Shown here piece by piece: positions 16,374 through 27,046 of a stretch of 64,000 nt of DNA. Under the pieces are notes generated by a model, which was not told the origin of the DNA, ran no database searches, and saw only the letters and a list, made by a program, of their open reading frames with translations. A program made the translations under genes and the position numbers. This stretch comes from Methylotenera sp. (GTDB lineage Bacteria; Pseudomonadota; Gammaproteobacteria; Burkholderiales; Methylophilaceae): assembly GCF_029946165.1 (NCBI RefSeq), contig NZ_JAQSDZ010000001.1, positions 124,001-188,000 of the forward strand, written 5' to 3'. How positions within the stretch are numbered: the stretch's first letter is position 1; every line of letters starts with the position of its first letter.

Positions 16374-17978
16374 ATGCACTCAAAAATCCTCATTTTAGAT
16401 TTCGGCTCACAAGTCACTCAACTTATCGCTCGCCGTGTGCGAGATGCGCATGTCTATTGCGAAATTCACTCATGTGAAGTATCTGACGAATTTGTACGTA
16501 ACTTTGGCGCGGATGGCGTTATCCTTTCAGGTAGCCATGCCAGTGCTTACGAAGAAGAATCAGATAGCGCTCCGCAAGCTGTATTCGAGCTTGGTGTGCC
16601 TGTGTTGGGTATATGTTACGGCATGCAAACCATGGCGCAGCAACTTGGCGGTAAAGTAGAAGCAGGTCATAAACGTGAGTTTGGTTATGCGCAAGTGCGC
16701 GCACGCGGTCACTCTGCCCTATTCCGCGATATTCAAGATAGTTCAAATGCTGAAGGTCATGGCTTTATTGACGTATGGATGAGTCACGGCGATAAAGTGA
16801 CTGAAATACCCGCTGGATTTAAAGTGATTGCTAGTAACGACACTACGCCAATTGCAGCAATGGCTGACGAAACACGTAAATTCTACGCAGTGCAATTTCA
16901 CCCAGAAGTGACGCATACCAAGCAAGGTCAAGCCATGCTTAACCGCTTTGTGTTAGATATTTGTGGTGCAAAACCTGACTGGATTATGGGCGACTACATT
17001 GCTGAAGCGGTGGCAAAAATCAAAGCACAAGTCGGTGATGAAGAGGTCATTTTAGGCTTATCTGGCGGCGTAGATTCTAGCGTTGCAGCCGCACTAATTC
17101 ACCGCGCGATTGGCGATCAGCTTACTTGCGTGTTTGTTGACCACGGTCTACTTCGTCTGAATGAAGGCGATTTAGTGATGGAGATGTTTGCAGGTCGTTT
17201 ACATGTGAATGTGATTCGCGTTGATGCAACAGATCAATTCATGGGTCATTTAGCTGGGGTGAGCGACCCCGAAGCGAAACGTAAAATTATAGGTCGTGAA
17301 TTTGTAGAAGTATTTAAGAATGAAGCCGCTAAACTCAAAGCTGGCACAGGTGGTCATAAAGGCGCAACATTCCTCGCGCAAGGTACGATTTATCCTGACG
17401 TGATTGAGTCTGGTGGCGCAAAATCTAAAAAAGCAGTGACGATTAAAAGCCATCACAACGTGGGCGGTTTACCTGAGCAATTAGGCTTGAAATTACTAGA
17501 GCCACTGCGCGACCTATTTAAAGATGAAGTGCGTGAACTTGGCGTAGCGCTTGGCCTGCCAGCGGACATGGTATATCGCCACCCATTTCCAGGGCCAGGT
17601 TTAGGCGTGCGTATTTTAGGCGAAATCAAAAAGGACTTTGCTGATTTACTTCGCCGTGCCGATGCGATTTTTATCGAAGAGTTACGCACTACTAAAGACC
17701 ACGCAACAGGTAAAACTTGGTATGAACTCACTAGCCAAGCTTTTACGGTGTTCTTACCAGTAAAGTCGGTTGGCGTAATGGGCGATGGCCGTACTTATGA
17801 TTACGTTGTGGCCTTGCGTGCAGTGGTCACCAGTGATTTTATGACCGCACATTGGGCAGAATTACCCTACTCACTTTTAGGGCGTGTTTCAAACCGCATT
17901 ATCAATGAAGTACGTGGCATCAACCGCGTGGTGTATGACGTTTCTGGTAAACCGCCCGCTACGATTGAATGGGAATAA
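16374..17978 (+). CDS. guaA: GMP synthase (glutamine-hydrolysing)
   Basis: Converts XMP, ATP and glutamine to GMP. 534 residues. Class I glutamine amidotransferase domain (1-200) with nucleophile Cys in GICYGMQ and catalytic His-Glu in FHPEVTHT. The ATP-pyrophosphatase domain follows with the P-loop [20 protein letters not shown], and then the C-terminal dimerisation domain ending PPATIEWE. Full length. It lies 74 bases after guaB and is followed after one base by the Gre-family gene. Confidence 0.97.
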
Positions 17979-21969: not shown

Positions 21970-24471
21970 ATGTCAAAAAACGTAATTAGCAAGCAAGCCC
22001 CAATGTTAGAACATTTCAATACCATTATTATTGGTTCAGGCCCAAGCGGTTTATCCGCGGCTGTGCGCGCTACTGAGCAGAAATTATCTTACTTACTGCT
22101 TGAAGCCGAGCAAGAACCCGCTAGCACTATTCGCAGTTATCTACGCGGCAAACTCGTTATGTCAGAGCCGCGCGCCCTTCCTATTCGCAGCCCCTTACCT
22201 TTTACCGCATCTTTACGCGAAGTTGTGCTCCACACTTGGGAAAGGACGATTATTGATTACAACTTGAATATTCGTTACGGTTCAAAAGTGATAGGTATAC
22301 ACCGCCGCGAAAAATGGTTGGAATTAGAGTTAGCGGATGGCAGCCAAATCACCGCAGATCATGTGGTGCTGGCCATTGGTGTTCAAGGCAATTTACGTCA
22401 GTTAGAGATTCCTGGTGGCGATGTACCGCAAGTACAGTATCAATTAGATGATCCTCAAGCTTATCAGGATGAAACCATTATAGTCATTGGTGGTGGTGAT
22501 AGCGGCGTGGAAAATGCGCTCGCGCTCACTGGGCGCAACCAAATTATTATTCTTAATCGTGCAGATGACTTTAGCAATTGTAAGGAAAGCAACCTTACTC
22601 AATTGACAGAGGCACGAAAAAGAGGTGCTTTAGATTGGTTGCTAGAAACAAGACCTCAAGCAATTGAAGTAAATACTCAAGGTGAGTTCCCTATCACGGT
22701 GATAGCGAATACCCCAAATGGCATTGAGCGCATTCCATGCCATCGCGTGATTGCGCGACTTGGCGCCCTGCCCTCACGGCCGCTGCTTGAAGGCTTTGGC
22801 GTAGGTTTTCCAACAGATGACTATGCCGCGCTACCTTCATTATCTTCACATTATGAGTCTAGCGTGCCTGGACTTTATATCATTGGTGCACTGGCTGGTT
22901 ATCCGTTAATCAAACAAGGGATTAATCAAGGCTATGAAGTCATTGAGTACATTTTAGGCAACCCAGTAGAACCTGCTGATACAGCCTTATTGCGTGATAA
23001 ATTCGCAAGCTTTTGCAATGACCGTGGCGTAGATGATGTGTTGGAAAAAATACGCAAAAGCGTGCCCTTGCTGAAAATGCTAACGACCTTGCAGCTACGT
23101 GAGTTAGTGTTGCAAAGTAACATCTTGCAGCCCGAGCCTGGTGACATTATCTTTAAACGCAATGATTACAGCACCACCTTTTTCTTTATCGTCGAAGGTG
23201 AGTTAGATGTATTAATTGATGAAGCTGATAAACCAGACGCTAAACTTAAAGCGGGTCAATTCTTTGGTGAAATGGCGCTTGTGTCAGGTCGCCGTAGAGC
23301 CGGCACGGTTCGCGCCAATACAAAATGCGTGCTGATTGAAACGCCTAGACGCGTGATGCAAAAACTTGTTGATTCAGTGCAGTCCATGCGCCGCGTACTC
23401 AATGAAGTGGCCATTAAGTGGGTAGTACACGTATGTATTGGCCTAACGCTAAGTGAAGAGGACTTGAATGATTTAGCTACTCATGCTACGCCTAAAAGCT
23501 TTGCCGCTGGTGAGGAGTTGTTCCATGAAGGCGATCAGGCGGATGGCTTATATTTGATTCAAAGTGGCTCAGTTACAGTTTCGCGCATCATTGGTGGTCG
23601 TGAGGTCGTGCTGTATTACGTCGCGGCAGGCAACTATGTGGGTGAATGGTCTCTGGTCTCTGGAGAACCCCGCTATGCGACCGTACGAGCAGCCGTTGCT
23701 ACCGAAGCCGTTTTGATTGATGCGAGCAGAATGAGTGATATTATCGCGCGCAATCCAGAAATTCGTAGTGAGTTAGATGCGCGCTATCTTAAACATTTAC
23801 AAGATCAGGAAAAACGTCAGCAAATTGAAACGACAGATCATCCAAGTGCGTTAAGCAATCAATCTACACCTTCAAATCTTATCTCATTCCTGATTCAACA
23901 AGGTGTAGGCGAGGCTACTGATGTACTGTTAATTGACGAGTCACTATGTGTGCGCTGCAACTACTGTGAAGACGCTTGCGCGGATACTCATGGTGGAGCA
24001 ACAAGATTAGACCGCGATGCAGGGCCTATTTTTGCAAACATTCGCGTGCCGACTTCATGTCGCCACTGTGAGCACCCACACTGTATGAAAGATTGTCCGC
24101 CTGATGCGATTCACCGCGCACCGCATGGCGAAGTTTACATTGATGACAGCTGTATCGGCTGCGGCAATTGCCAACAAAATTGTCCGTATGATGTTATTCA
24201 GATGGCTGTGATACAAGACCAGCCGGAACGTAGTATCTGGCAAATTTTGCTGGGCATTCACCCTAAAGCCGTACCCATTGTTGGCGGTTCAAAAGTGGCA
24301 GTTAAATGCGATATGTGCAAAGACATTAAAGAGGGGCCTGTGTGTGTACGTGCCTGCCCAGTTGGCGCGGCCTTGCGAGTTAACCCAGAAGAGTTACTCA
24401 ACTATGCAGGCGGTTCTAATAGTGACAGCATTACAAACGAAGTCTTTTTAACTGAATCTGACGGAAATTAG
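21970..24471 (+). CDS. FAD/NAD(P) oxidoreductase with two cyclic-nucleotide-binding domains and four [4Fe-4S] clusters
   Basis: 833 residues in three blocks. Residues 15-325 are a thioredoxin-reductase/YpdA-like flavoprotein with two dinucleotide folds (IIIGSGPSGLSAA; IVIGGGDSGVENA). Two cNMP-binding domains follow (about 355-470 and 485-610; motifs FFGEMALVSGRRRAGTVR and VGEWSLVSGEPRYATVR). Residues 655-800 form a ferredoxin of the DMSO-reductase beta-subunit type with four cysteine groups (CVRCNYCEDAC, CRHCEHPHC, CIGCGNCQQNCP, CDMCK...CVRACP). No signal peptide or membrane span, so it is cytoplasmic. It probably takes electrons from NAD(P)H through FAD to the Fe-S clusters, with activity tuned by cyclic nucleotides, and passes them to the membrane protein encoded next. 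Confidence 0.88.
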   Translation: MSKNVISKQAPMLEHFNTIIIGSGPSGLSAAVRATEQKLSYLLLEAEQEPASTIRSYLRGKLVMSEPRALPIRSPLPFTASLREVVLHTWERTIIDYNLNIRYGSKVIGIHRREKWLELELADGSQITADHVVLAIGVQGNLRQLEIPGGDVPQVQYQLDDPQAYQDETIIVIGGGDSGVENALALTGRNQIIILNRADDFSNCKESNLTQLTEARKRGALDWLLETRPQAIEVNTQGEFPITVIANTPNGIERIPCHRVIARLGALPSRPLLEGFGVGFPTDDYAALPSLSSHYESSVPGLYIIGALAGYPLIKQGINQGYEVIEYILGNPVEPADTALLRDKFASFCNDRGVDDVLEKIRKSVPLLKMLTTLQLRELVLQSNILQPEPGDIIFKRNDYSTTFFFIVEGELDVLIDEADKPDAKLKAGQFFGEMALVSGRRRAGTVRANTKCVLIETPRRVMQKLVDSVQSMRRVLNEVAIKWVVHVCIGLTLSEEDLNDLATHATPKSFAAGEELFHEGDQADGLYLIQSGSVTVSRIIGGREVVLYYVAAGNYVGEWSLVSGEPRYATVRAAVATEAVLIDASRMSDIIARNPEIRSELDARYLKHLQDQEKRQQIETTDHPSALSNQSTPSNLISFLIQQGVGEATDVLLIDESLCVRCNYCEDACADTHGGATRLDRDAGPIFANIRVPTSCRHCEHPHCMKDCPPDAIHRAPHGEVYIDDSCIGCGNCQQNCPYDVIQMAVIQDQPERSIWQILLGIHPKAVPIVGGSKVAVKCDMCKDIKEGPVCVRACPVGAALRVNPEELLNYAGGSNSDSITNEVFLTESDGN

Positions 24472-24480
24472 AGAAATTTC

Positions 24481-25311
24481 ATGCAACGCGGCAATATATT
24501 CGACTACAAAAACTATCGTTACTTCAAACTAGCCATCGTCGTCATTGCTATTGCCTTTAGTGCATTTATGCTATTTGAACCTGCAGTTGGTTACTATGGT
24601 GGAAGCTGGTTAGGCTATGGTCTAGGCACAGTTTCAGCCGCTTTGGTGTTTTGGATGGCATGGTATGGCGTGCGCAAGCGTCGTTATCGAAGTAGCGGCT
24701 CAACACAAGGATGGTTATCCGCGCATATTTATCTAGGTACAGCACTCACAGTTACAGCCACACTTCATAGTGGCTTTCATTTTGGTATTAATATCCACAG
24801 TCTCACTTACGGCTTATTGATTATTGTCGTAGTCAGCGGATTTTTCGGTAATTATGCCTATATGATTTACCCTCGGCTTATGACCGAAAACATGGGTGAA
24901 GATAGCTTGGATGGTCTGTTATTGAGAATTGCAGAAACAGATAAGCTGGCTCGTCAGATTGCTTTAATCATGCCAGATGATATCAACTTCACGGTAGATC
25001 GCGCATGCAGAGAAACCTATATAGGCACGGGGCTAATTGAACAATTAAGAGGTTATCAACCAGATTGCCCGACTGCTGTTGCTGTAGCGAAGCTCACAAT
25101 ACTAGGTAATCATTTAACTGGAGAGCAGCGTAAGTTGTATCGCGAACTATACTCCATAATGGTCCGGCGCCAGTCTTTAGTCAAACGTGCTAGACAAGAT
25201 TTAATGTACCGTGCCAGACTTGGCTTTTGGCTTTACTTTCACACACCTTTTGCAGTGGCCTTATTAGCTGCAATGGTAGTGCATATTGTTGCCGTATTTC
25301 TTTATTGGTAA
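24481..25311 (+). CDS. Membrane cytochrome b-like protein with paired H-x13-H motifs
   Basis: 276 residues with about five membrane spans (near 17-35, 45-63, 80-100, 107-128, 247-275) and a soluble loop of about 115 residues. His82 and His96 (H-x13-H) lie in span 3, and His254 and His268 (also H-x13-H) in the last span. This is the spacing known for the two stacked b hemes of ferric reductases and NADPH oxidases. No flavin domain is attached. I infer a two-heme electron conduit across the inner membrane between the cytoplasmic Fe-S flavoprotein and the periplasmic multiheme protein. The gene is nine bases from the first and three bases from the third. Confidence 0.8.
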   Translation: MQRGNIFDYKNYRYFKLAIVVIAIAFSAFMLFEPAVGYYGGSWLGYGLGTVSAALVFWMAWYGVRKRRYRSSGSTQGWLSAHIYLGTALTVTATLHSGFHFGINIHSLTYGLLIIVVVSGFFGNYAYMIYPRLMTENMGEDSLDGLLLRIAETDKLARQIALIMPDDINFTVDRACRETYIGTGLIEQLRGYQPDCPTAVAVAKLTILGNHLTGEQRKLYRELYSIMVRRQSLVKRARQDLMYRARLGFWLYFHTPFAVALLAAMVVHIVAVFLYW

Positions 25312-25314
25312 GTC

Positions 25315-26952
25315 ATGATTAATTGCCTTTTAATCAAAATTTCACTTAATAAGCGCGGCATGCCCGTGCGTAGCTATCGCACGCTAACAGCAGAAGAGTT
25401 ATCTATTGGACGAGGCGCTGAATGCAACATTCATTTACTCGATCCTCGTATTTCTATGCATCATGCCGTCATCAAGCGCTTAGATGATGGCCAGCTGCAT
25501 TTGGTCTCAGTCAATGGTGAGCTTGAAGTTGATGGTGCTATTTTACAAAATACCGCCCTTACTCATGGTACTCAAGTCATGATTGGCCCATTCCAGTTAA
25601 AGGTCGAACCTGCGCCACCAGATGTGAATATTGCGGTGTCATTAACATTAGTACATTTATTACCAGATGACTTCCAAAACTTAAAAGCACGCACGCACGA
25701 ACCGCTTAGAGGCGCATCTATCTTTAAAAAAAGATTAGCGATATCGTTAGTGGCTTTTATTGCACTTATATTTCTGGTGTTACCATTAGCGCAGAATCTC
25801 ATTCCTAATCTCCATGCCACCATGGCAAAGCTACCTTTAGGATTTGACCGTTTATGGAGCCCTGGGCATATTTCCAACTCTCATTTGCACTTTGGCTCAC
25901 AATGTTTTAATTGCCATGAGGTACTCACTCAACAAGTGAGCGATCAAGCCTGCATTAAATGCCATCTCAACGTTGCACCTCATATTGCTGACCCCAAACT
26001 GCAAGAGAAAGTGTTTAACCACAATAAATTGTTTATGGATGGTATACGCTGTGCTGAATGTCACCGAGAGCACAAGTCTCCGTTTCCACTGGCGCGACAA
26101 GATAACAGCACCTGTGTAAAGTGTCATGGCAATATTAAATCTGTGGATAAATCGTCAAAGCTACCTAATATCCATGACTTTAATCGTGATCATCCTGCGT
26201 TTAAACTCACGTTTTTAACAGGTGACTTAGAGAAGAAAATCGAGCGCATTCCACAAACAGATAAAGCACGATTAGTCGAGAAATCAGGCATCAAGTTTCC
26301 GCATTCTCAGCATTTTGGTAAAGTACAAGGTCCAAATGGCATTTGGGATATACGCGAAATGACTTGTACTAATTGCCATCAGCAAGAAGGCAAGGAAATG
26401 CGCTTTAAACCAGTTTCCTATAATCGCGACTGCGTGACGTGTCATGCCAATCAGCTGACAATGGGGCCTCCAGAGACGCTCATCACTGTACCGCATGGCT
26501 CAGAACAAAATGTAATGAATACCCTAAAGGTTCAAGCACCAAAACAACTTGCGCATTATTCAGAATCATTAAGAACCGATGGTTGCGCCTATTGCCATGA
26601 AATTAATGACTTTAAGGCTAAAACTAAAACTCAAGTAAAAGTTGACTCCAAAGGTAAGGCAAATCCCGATGATGACTTGCCTTGGCATGTGGCACCGTTA
26701 AATATCAACCAAGATTGGTTTAGCAAGGCACGCTTTAATCACGCTTCACACCAAACTCAAAAATGCCAGTCTTGCCATGCCGTAGAAGAGTCTGAATCCA
26801 GTGCAGATGTCGCAATGCCTGACCGCCAATCATGCTTACGCTGTCATTCTGGCAATAGCCCAAAACCTAAACGCATTGCGAGTAGTTGTATGTCGTGCCA
26901 TGACTTTCACGACTCACATGTGATGCATGAAGCTTTAGCAGAATCAAAGTAA
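25315..26952 (+). CDS. FHA domain fused to a membrane-anchored decaheme cytochrome c
   Basis: 545 residues. Residues 15-100 are an FHA phosphothreonine-binding domain (LSIGRGAECNIHLLDPRISM: Gly-Arg and Arg-Ile-Ser present; VNG loop). One membrane span lies at about 142-162 (ISLVAFIALIFLVLPLAQ). The remainder has ten CXXCH heme-binding motifs (CFNCH, CIKCH, CAECH, CVKCH, CTNCH, CVTCH, CAYCH, CQSCH, CLRCH, CMSCH) and many extra His residues for the sixth ligand. The FHA domain would be cytoplasmic and the hemes periplasmic, so the protein could relay a kinase signal to an electron carrier. A terminator follows. Confidence 0.88.
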   Translation: MINCLLIKISLNKRGMPVRSYRTLTAEELSIGRGAECNIHLLDPRISMHHAVIKRLDDGQLHLVSVNGELEVDGAILQNTALTHGTQVMIGPFQLKVEPAPPDVNIAVSLTLVHLLPDDFQNLKARTHEPLRGASIFKKRLAISLVAFIALIFLVLPLAQNLIPNLHATMAKLPLGFDRLWSPGHISNSHLHFGSQCFNCHEVLTQQVSDQACIKCHLNVAPHIADPKLQEKVFNHNKLFMDGIRCAECHREHKSPFPLARQDNSTCVKCHGNIKSVDKSSKLPNIHDFNRDHPAFKLTFLTGDLEKKIERIPQTDKARLVEKSGIKFPHSQHFGKVQGPNGIWDIREMTCTNCHQQEGKEMRFKPVSYNRDCVTCHANQLTMGPPETLITVPHGSEQNVMNTLKVQAPKQLAHYSESLRTDGCAYCHEINDFKAKTKTQVKVDSKGKANPDDDLPWHVAPLNINQDWFSKARFNHASHQTQKCQSCHAVEESESSADVAMPDRQSCLRCHSGNSPKPKRIASSCMSCHDFHDSHVMHEALAESK

Positions 26953-26994
26953 CTCAGTAACCTAATATAGAATTCAACCGATAAATTAAGATAA

Positions 26995-27025
26995 CAAAAA
27001 ACCCAGCAATCAGCTGGGTTTTTTG
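26995..27025. terminator. Bidirectional terminator between the redox cluster and typA
   Basis: A run, ACCCAGC (27001-27007), loop AATCA, GCTGGGT (27013-27019), T run. Works for both converging transcripts. Confidence 0.93.
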
Positions 27026-27046
27026 TTTAAAGCTAACCGTTAAGAA

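Follow-up and report, generated by a model that had tools for sequence, protein, structure and literature searches.

In a 64,000-nucleotide stretch of the genome of a Methylotenera sp. (Methylophilaceae; NCBI RefSeq assembly GCF_029946165.1, contig NZ_JAQSDZ010000001.1, positions 124,001 to 188,000 of the forward strand; hereafter the window), three genes that we designate A, B, and C form, as judged from their sequences and those of their relatives, a conserved three-gene module. We lean toward the view that this is an inner-membrane module in which electrons would run outward from NAD(P)H through flavin adenine dinucleotide (FAD) and four [4Fe-4S] clusters in A, two b haems in B, and ten c haems in C, with the flow gated at A by a cyclic nucleotide. 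All three genes lie on the + strand, with intergenic gaps of 9 bp (A-B) and 3 bp (B-C). The tight packing reported in a preliminary description of the window agrees with the open reading frame (ORF) coordinates and strand. The domain content given there (FAD/NAD(P), two cyclic-nucleotide-binding (cNMP), and four [4Fe-4S] parts in A; a forkhead-associated (FHA) domain and ten CXXCH motifs in C) was likewise borne out by Pfam and NCBIfam matches and by the motifs present. The features, in window coordinates, are:

21970-24471, + strand: gene A, 833 residues, with FAD/NAD(P), two cNMP, and four [4Fe-4S] parts, predicted cytoplasmic (ORF and domain searches)
22018-22932, + strand: FAD/NAD(P) domain of A, residues 17-321 (Pfam PF07992, Pyr_redox), YpdA/thioredoxin-reductase-like, without CxxC
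23134-23373 (contig 147134-147373), + strand: cNMP domain 1 of A, with an FGE..R phosphate cassette (E434 and R443)
23494-23754, + strand: cNMP domain 2 of A, with a VGE..R cassette (E559 and R568)
23917-24399, + strand: four Cys4 [4Fe-4S] motifs of A, HydN/HycB/DmsB-like (domain searches; 16 Cys conserved)
24481-25311, + strand: gene B, 276 residues, inner-membrane protein with two putative b-haem sites
24724-24726, 24766-24768, 25240-25242, and 25282-25284, + strand: codons of the candidate haem-ligand His residues H82, H96, H254, and H268 of B
25315-26952, + strand: gene C, 545 residues, FHA-decahaem c-type cytochrome
25402-25587, + strand: FHA domain of C, residues 30-91 (Pfam PF00498), ahead of the transmembrane helix and predicted cytoplasmic
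25735-25791, + strand: single transmembrane helix of C, residues 141-159
25903-26901, + strand: ten CXXCH motifs of C, predicted periplasmic
26993-27027, no strand assigned (listed on the - strand): palindromic 15-pair stem with a T-run, a possible terminator after C

Six terminator-like sites were observed in the region compared to 5.0 in shuffled sequences, so the terminator after C is weakly indicated.

Conserved residues of the three proteins

Residue conservation was counted across 79 A, 100 B, and 95 C sequences (window included, length limits applied), and the conservation of the ligand residues across these rows argues that the features of A, B, and C are not due to chance. The flavin part of A finds its closest PDB match in the YpdA Bdr structure 7a7b, with further matches to thioredoxin reductases. 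A redox-active CxxC is the hallmark of thioredoxin reductases. CxxC is absent from residues 1-340 of A, and A scores below the curated cut-offs of disulfide-reductase models (TIGR04018, 106.7 compared to 339.9 bits; TRX_reduct, 56.9 compared to 343.45 bits); on both counts, A does not appear to be a thioredoxin or bacillithiol disulfide reductase. Instead, the lack of CxxC suggests that the flavin passes electrons to the Fe-S part of the same protein rather than to a dithiol. All 79 sequences keep R197 of the NAD(P) site and each of the 16 cluster Cys residues, and A matches PF13247 with 36.4 bits (cut-off, 26.2). The cNMP match (126.3 bits; cut-off, 27.5) covers a region that resembles the paired regulatory domains found in PKG and PKA (lowest E, 5.4e-32), and the cassette of A aligns with the FGE..R cassette of PKG. 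Proteins of the CRP/PKA type are marked by the cNMP fold and by the Glu and Arg of the phosphate cassette. The conservation of these residues in A (E434, R443, and E559 each in 79/79 sequences; R568 in 78/79) suggests that its cNMP domains bind ligand.

B carries two WX3HX13H motifs, in which the His residues of each pair (H82/H96 and H254/H268) are 14 residues apart. W78, H82, H96, W250, H254, H268, G120, and G123 are invariant (100/100), and S119 is kept in 96/100 sequences. An AlphaFold2 model of B from 48 sequences (pLDDT 85.2, pTM 0.75), which replaced a poor model from 11 rows (pLDDT 66.6), contains five long helices (residues 13-31, 43-66, 73-97, 105-138, and 214-275) and a helical region of ≈75 residues between helices four and five. 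The charge pattern suggests that the N terminus and the ≈75-residue region are cytoplasmic, which would place one His of each pair near either face of the membrane. A 41-69-residue match (36-54%) of the cytoplasmic loop of B to the starts of two ORFs with the look of sigma-54-type regulators (L035:5211-6587 and L036:6852-8210; L numbers denote loci throughout) was set aside as probably due to chance.

The FHA match in C scores 35.1 bits (cut-off, 20.7). Because the FHA domain stands ahead of the lone transmembrane helix, and because five Lys or Arg residues lie in the 15 positions before this helix compared to one in the 15 after it, the predicted topology places FHA in the cytoplasm and the haems in the periplasm. 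The cNMP and FHA domains would thus face the same compartment, contrary to the earlier proposal that the signalling domains stand at opposite ends of the electron path. Each haem-motif column is kept in 93-95 of the 95 sequences of C. In seven rows the number of strict CXXCH motifs falls short of ten: five have one CX4CH instead, while L103 lacks one motif and L082 is cut by the contig end. Phosphothreonine-reading FHA domains have a pocket of Arg, Ser, His, and Asn. The window protein holds all four (R33, S47, H50, and N67); across the 95 rows, R33 is conserved in 94 and H50 in 77, position 67 is Asn in 38, and position 47 is Ser in 16, being Ala in 25 of the 37 Methylotenera-like rows.

Co-occurrence and neighbouring genes

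A family search with B covered 187 genomes and gave a match at E 0.001 in 59, of which 47 were counted as orthologues (46 with E no higher than 3e-100 and a split copy in genome G035); 42 of these orthologues fall among the 52 members of the window's genus. Ten of the weak places from this search were fetched, and eight proved PCC3-like (L034, L039, L040, L041, L042, L046, L047, and L050). In a phylum sample of 397 Pseudomonadota genomes, including the window's own, B matched at E 0.001 in 34 genomes, 18 of them strongly (E < 1e-70); the 16 weak matches (E 1e-13 to 1e-3) were left uncounted, and three were opened (L180, L181, and L182). Full-length A (E < 1e-60) was present in 17 of the 397 genomes, and all 17 are among the 18 strong-B genomes. 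The strong-B genome without A, G545 (L169), has B and a decahaem-type cytochrome without an FHA match.

Gene order was read from 99 loci, comprising the best 80 of 169 relatives from a contig scan with B, two Sphingobium plasmid loci, and 17 phylum stretches; these loci are not independent, since 39 are Methylotenera-like and some phylum genomes may duplicate named records. B and C are same-strand neighbours in 97/99 loci (median gap 7 bp, largest 809 bp), and the remaining two loci end at a contig edge. A adjoins B in 81/99 loci and is fused to it in one, L164:6850-10203, as a single ORF of 1118 residues. A is missing in the other 17, ten of which have at least 3.6 kb upstream, six 0.4-1.4 kb, and L117 236 bp. 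In a B tree of 70 rows (window included, most Methylotenera copies thinned out) and four PCC3-like proteins, the A-less rows need three changes, pointing to a few probable gains or losses of A. The titles of L106, L111, L127, and L129 (Mycobacteriaceae, Marinimicrobia, Mesoflavibacter) clash with their proteobacterial place in this tree, and these records are possibly mislabelled or misbinned.

Beyond C, alpha- and betaproteobacterial loci commonly contain genes for an HbpS-like protein, a barrel-like protein of ≈610 residues, and a large multihaem cytochrome. This outer module is on the same strand as C, or on the opposite strand in the sphingomonad-like loci L161, L162, L168, L170, L173, and L175. 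The barrel label was inferred from position and appearance; the barrel-like proteins of L090, L127, L162, L177, and L182 gave no Pfam match, and that of L124 begins with a Cds6_C domain. At least 5.7 kb downstream of C was available in 46 of the 60 non-Methylotenera loci. The barrel-like gene of the outer module was found in 32 of these 46 (21 with A and 11 without A), PCC4-like 4- and 5-haem cytochromes with a related barrel-like gene in three (L124, L127, and L177), and neither type in 11; for one of these 11, L167, the module sits further off (L190). By contrast, the 39 Methylotenera-like stretches, of which 25 extend 5.7 kb or more beyond C and six less than 1 kb, showed neither outer-module nor PCC4-like genes, and a 5-haem probe gave no match there. 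By eye, there was no porin candidate among the ORFs adjoining the trio in the window and no other CXXCH-rich ORF between window positions 17000 and 33000.

A CpdA-like metallophosphoesterase gene follows C by 0-220 bp on the same strand in all nine strong-B genomes of family f53 and in both Sphingobium plasmid loci opened, and lies 4.8 kb from C in L167 (family f52). The label sphingomonad-like for f53 comes from the B tree, in which the Sphingobium rows are nested within that family; the name CpdA is given to the gene after C in one record. Of the 12 Sphingobium plasmid records matching B, the two opened (L161, 0.96 Mb; L162, 1.28 Mb) carry the whole cluster, the outer module, and the CpdA-like gene, and L162 also has a CcmH-like TPR gene. 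By eye, apparent cytochrome c maturation genes, CcmF among them, lie upstream of the A-less loci L090-L092, L100, and L106, and also by the PCC3-like locus L034.

Cyclic-nucleotide and phospho signals could both be made in this organism, since the window's own genome has genes for a class III nucleotide cyclase (212.8 bits) and for three Ser/Thr kinases above cut-off. This genome gave no match for the 27-haem PCC3 protein or for the L090 barrel-like probe (a PCC4-type probe was not used), each of which is weak evidence of absence, and no other C-like cytochromes, the one hit being a weak match to the FHA region (E 0.34).

Relation to PCC3 and PCC4 conduits

The inner-membrane proteins of the PCC3 and PCC4 conduits are described in the accessible text of He et al. 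(2017, PMC5566968) as having WX3HX13H twice and SGXXG. B has two WX3HX13H motifs, SGXXG on transmembrane helix four, and five transmembrane helices, and belongs to this superfamily. This assignment was supported by hhalign comparisons of B with the eight PCC3-like inner-membrane proteins of Methylophilaceae (probability 98.9, E 2.7e-17, four His aligned) and with the inner-membrane protein of the PCC4-like locus L182 (probability 97.9, E 4.3e-13). The trio therefore appears best called a variant of the PCC3/PCC4-type inner module, and the preliminary statement that no named system has this composition was too strong, the more so as a ten-haem FHA protein is already tabulated in the accessible part of PMC10734462. 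There, cluster 403 ("Forkhead-associated protein") has ten haem motifs and occurs in 27 of 87 Gallionellaceae iron-oxidiser genomes (Table 1). It probably corresponds to C, set side by side by description and not by sequence; in that part of the paper the word occurs once, under "Other," without operon, partner, or function.

PCC4 subgroup II of the portion of PMC5566968 available to us resembles the window in having, in order, a pfam13247 Fe-S protein, an inner-membrane protein with two WX3HX13H motifs, and a ten-haem cytochrome. Compared to a full PCC4, the window trio lacks a porin and 4- and 5-haem cytochromes beside it, and A has its own FAD and C an FHA domain; in L124, L127, and L177, a barrel-like protein and 4- and 5-haem cytochromes resembling those of PCC4 accompany the A-B-C trio. 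L182 (5-haem cytochrome, barrel-like protein, reductase, 4-haem cytochrome, Fe-S protein, inner-membrane protein, and 10-haem cytochrome) fits the published PCC4 subgroup II, by description only. It differs from the trio in that its Fe-S protein has cNMP without FAD, NAD/FAD/2Fe-2S domains are in a separate reductase, and its decahaem protein has no FHA match. The PCC3 inner-membrane protein is homologous to B, with the four His aligned. In the fetched PCC3-like Methylophilaceae loci, an FAD-FeS gene is divergent from the inner-membrane gene (8/8) and, unlike in the trio, a 27-haem cytochrome adjoins the inner-membrane gene (7/8, a contig end truncating the remaining locus). The one FAD-FeS protein scanned, that of L041, matched Pyr_redox and Fer4 and not cNMP, unlike A. 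This divergent gene is not mentioned in the accessible text of the PCC3 papers.

In NADPH oxidases and ferric reductases, the cytoplasmic donor is NAD(P)H-FAD. Two HX13H pairs, as in B, serve these PF01794 proteins as ligands of a stacked pair of b haems, a comparison drawn in the available text of PMC5566968. Unlike such conduits, B gave no match to MsrQ, PF01794 was not among the six families matched by 48 B rows at E 0.01, and the flavin domain of A is of another family and joined through four Fe-S clusters. The terms FHA, cyclic nucleotide, and FAD are absent from the main text of PMC5566968, and the open-access literature, as far as its accessible text goes, yielded no account of this three-gene unit or of a cyclic nucleotide controlling such a conduit. 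New here are the outer-module or PCC4-like genes that usually stand beside the trio outside Methylotenera, and the CpdA-like gene after C in sphingomonad-like genomes.

Donor, direction, and control of electron flow

In the reading we favour, cytoplasmic A would take electrons from NAD(P)H and pass them through FAD to its four [4Fe-4S] clusters. A would dock on B, whose two stacked b haems, if loaded, would carry the electrons over the inner membrane, and C, held by its one-helix anchor, would accept them into ten periplasmic c haems. A cyclic nucleotide, possibly similar to cyclic AMP, would occupy the two cNMP domains of A and in this way gate the flow. The FHA head of C, on the cytoplasmic side, may help to tether C to A or to a different partner. 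C would deliver electrons to the outer module in many alpha- and betaproteobacteria; in Methylotenera, the acceptor may be periplasmic or other. An additional possibility, in which FHA reads phosphothreonine on A, was considered, but the pocket serine is not conserved and FHA was retained as a docking head alone. The order NAD(P)H-FAD-FeS-b-c put forward in the preliminary description is judged plausible. Its further claim of one regulated transmembrane unit gains from co-occurrence, B-C adjacency, the A-B fusion, the conserved cNMP sites, and the CpdA-like neighbour in sphingomonad-like genomes, and loses from the poorly kept FHA serine.

The neighbourhoods suggest that NAD(P)H, rather than quinol, is the donor. 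This link is favoured by the flavin, nucleotide, and cluster residues kept in A, by the divergent FAD-FeS gene in 8/8 PCC3-like Methylophilaceae loci, and by the NAD/FAD/2Fe-2S reductase and cNMP-FeS protein of the PCC4-like L182. A quinone-linked conduit, in which B trades electrons with the quinone pool and A is accessory or regulatory, agrees with the occurrence of B-C without A, with cytochrome b561 similarity at E 0.01 in 25/48 B rows, and with the model put forward for PCC3/PCC4 inner-membrane proteins, which the accessible text of PMC5566968 proposes to be quinone-active. We consider it unlikely, however, given that A is beside or fused to B in 82/99 loci with its cofactor residues retained, and that flavin/NAD proteins recur next to both PCC3-like and PCC4-like inner-membrane genes.

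Outward flow would run with the redox potential and with the membrane potential, and inward transfer to NAD(P)+ against the two. On this ground, and because 39 Methylotenera-like stretches (25 of them with 5.7 kb or more downstream) show no outer module, we rate still lower a path in which outside electrons, from Fe(II), minerals, or humics, enter through C and B to A and reduce NAD(P)+ or feed biosynthesis, even though Gallionella or Gallionellaceae account for three of the 80 named loci and PCC3 and PCC4 were proposed to serve Fe(II) oxidation (PMC5566968, accessible text). The same Methylotenera-like stretches would fit periplasmic redox maintenance, such as the reduction of thiols, haem, or oxides, without an outside link in any host, as would the cytochrome-c-maturation-like genes upstream of several A-less loci and the CcmH-like gene in L162; the barrel-like gene module near C in 35 of the 46 non-Methylotenera loci that reach 5.7 kb or further past C makes this improbable. 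That A is separable from B-C in a minority of loci would fit genes that are adjacent but independent, a reading scarcely credible against 17/17 co-occurrence, 97/99 B-C adjacency, and one A-B fusion.

Several observations nonetheless weigh against the favoured NAD(P)H-driven, cyclic-nucleotide-gated module. B-C without A in 16 loci (L117 aside), 11 of which are titled Burkholderiales or Betaproteobacteria, implies that A is not essential to B-C and speaks against the NAD(P)H link. G187 has a second full-length A (L183:8485-10962) with no B or C within 19.9 kb around it, and the phylum search for A scored two candidates per genome, so that extra copies could be missed. Homologues found regularly alone had been named as the result that would undo the proposed unit; in the neighbourhood search the trio mostly stands together, apart from these A-less loci and this one lone extra A. 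For B, the cytochrome b561 match (PF01292) is sub-threshold (28.5 compared to 30.1 bits); the invariance of the four candidate His ligands supports the two b-haem sites proposed earlier. Foldseek of the B model against PDB found nothing at E 0.001, its best hits, to sensor domains at E 0.22, being given no weight, and hhalign of B to single E. coli MsrQ and HyaC sequences found no match, single-sequence templates being weak and distant kinship possible. The CpdA-like protein falls far below NCBIfam cut-offs (SpdA, 135 compared to 400 bits; CpdA, 84 compared to 225 bits), and the SpdA model is named as a 2',3'-cyclic nucleotide enzyme. Finally, the rarity of Ser at position 47 makes phosphothreonine reading by C doubtful.

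More tentatively, the trio may be a cyclic-nucleotide-gated electron valve, in which a PKA/PKG-like cNMP pair in an NAD(P)H-FAD-FeS protein switches export via a b-haem protein to a decahaem cytochrome, with an inner module that fits at least two outer-membrane exit modules across Pseudomonadota and has its own phosphodiesterase neighbour in sphingomonads. PCC3 and PCC4 conduits are putative extracellular electron routes, for which the naming paper, in its accessible text, proposed the quinone pool as the inner partner (PMC5566968); the neighbourhoods here point to an NAD(P)H-linked, cyclic-nucleotide-sensing partner. If this is true, electron export would be under the direct control of the cell's redox state and of a second messenger, and conduits of the PCC3/PCC4 kind would extend to sphingomonad-like bacteria and methylotrophs.

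As a side observation, a 914-residue ORF lies near the A-B-C cluster of L032 (L032:1-2744), and its start presumably resembles a Cas9 protein.

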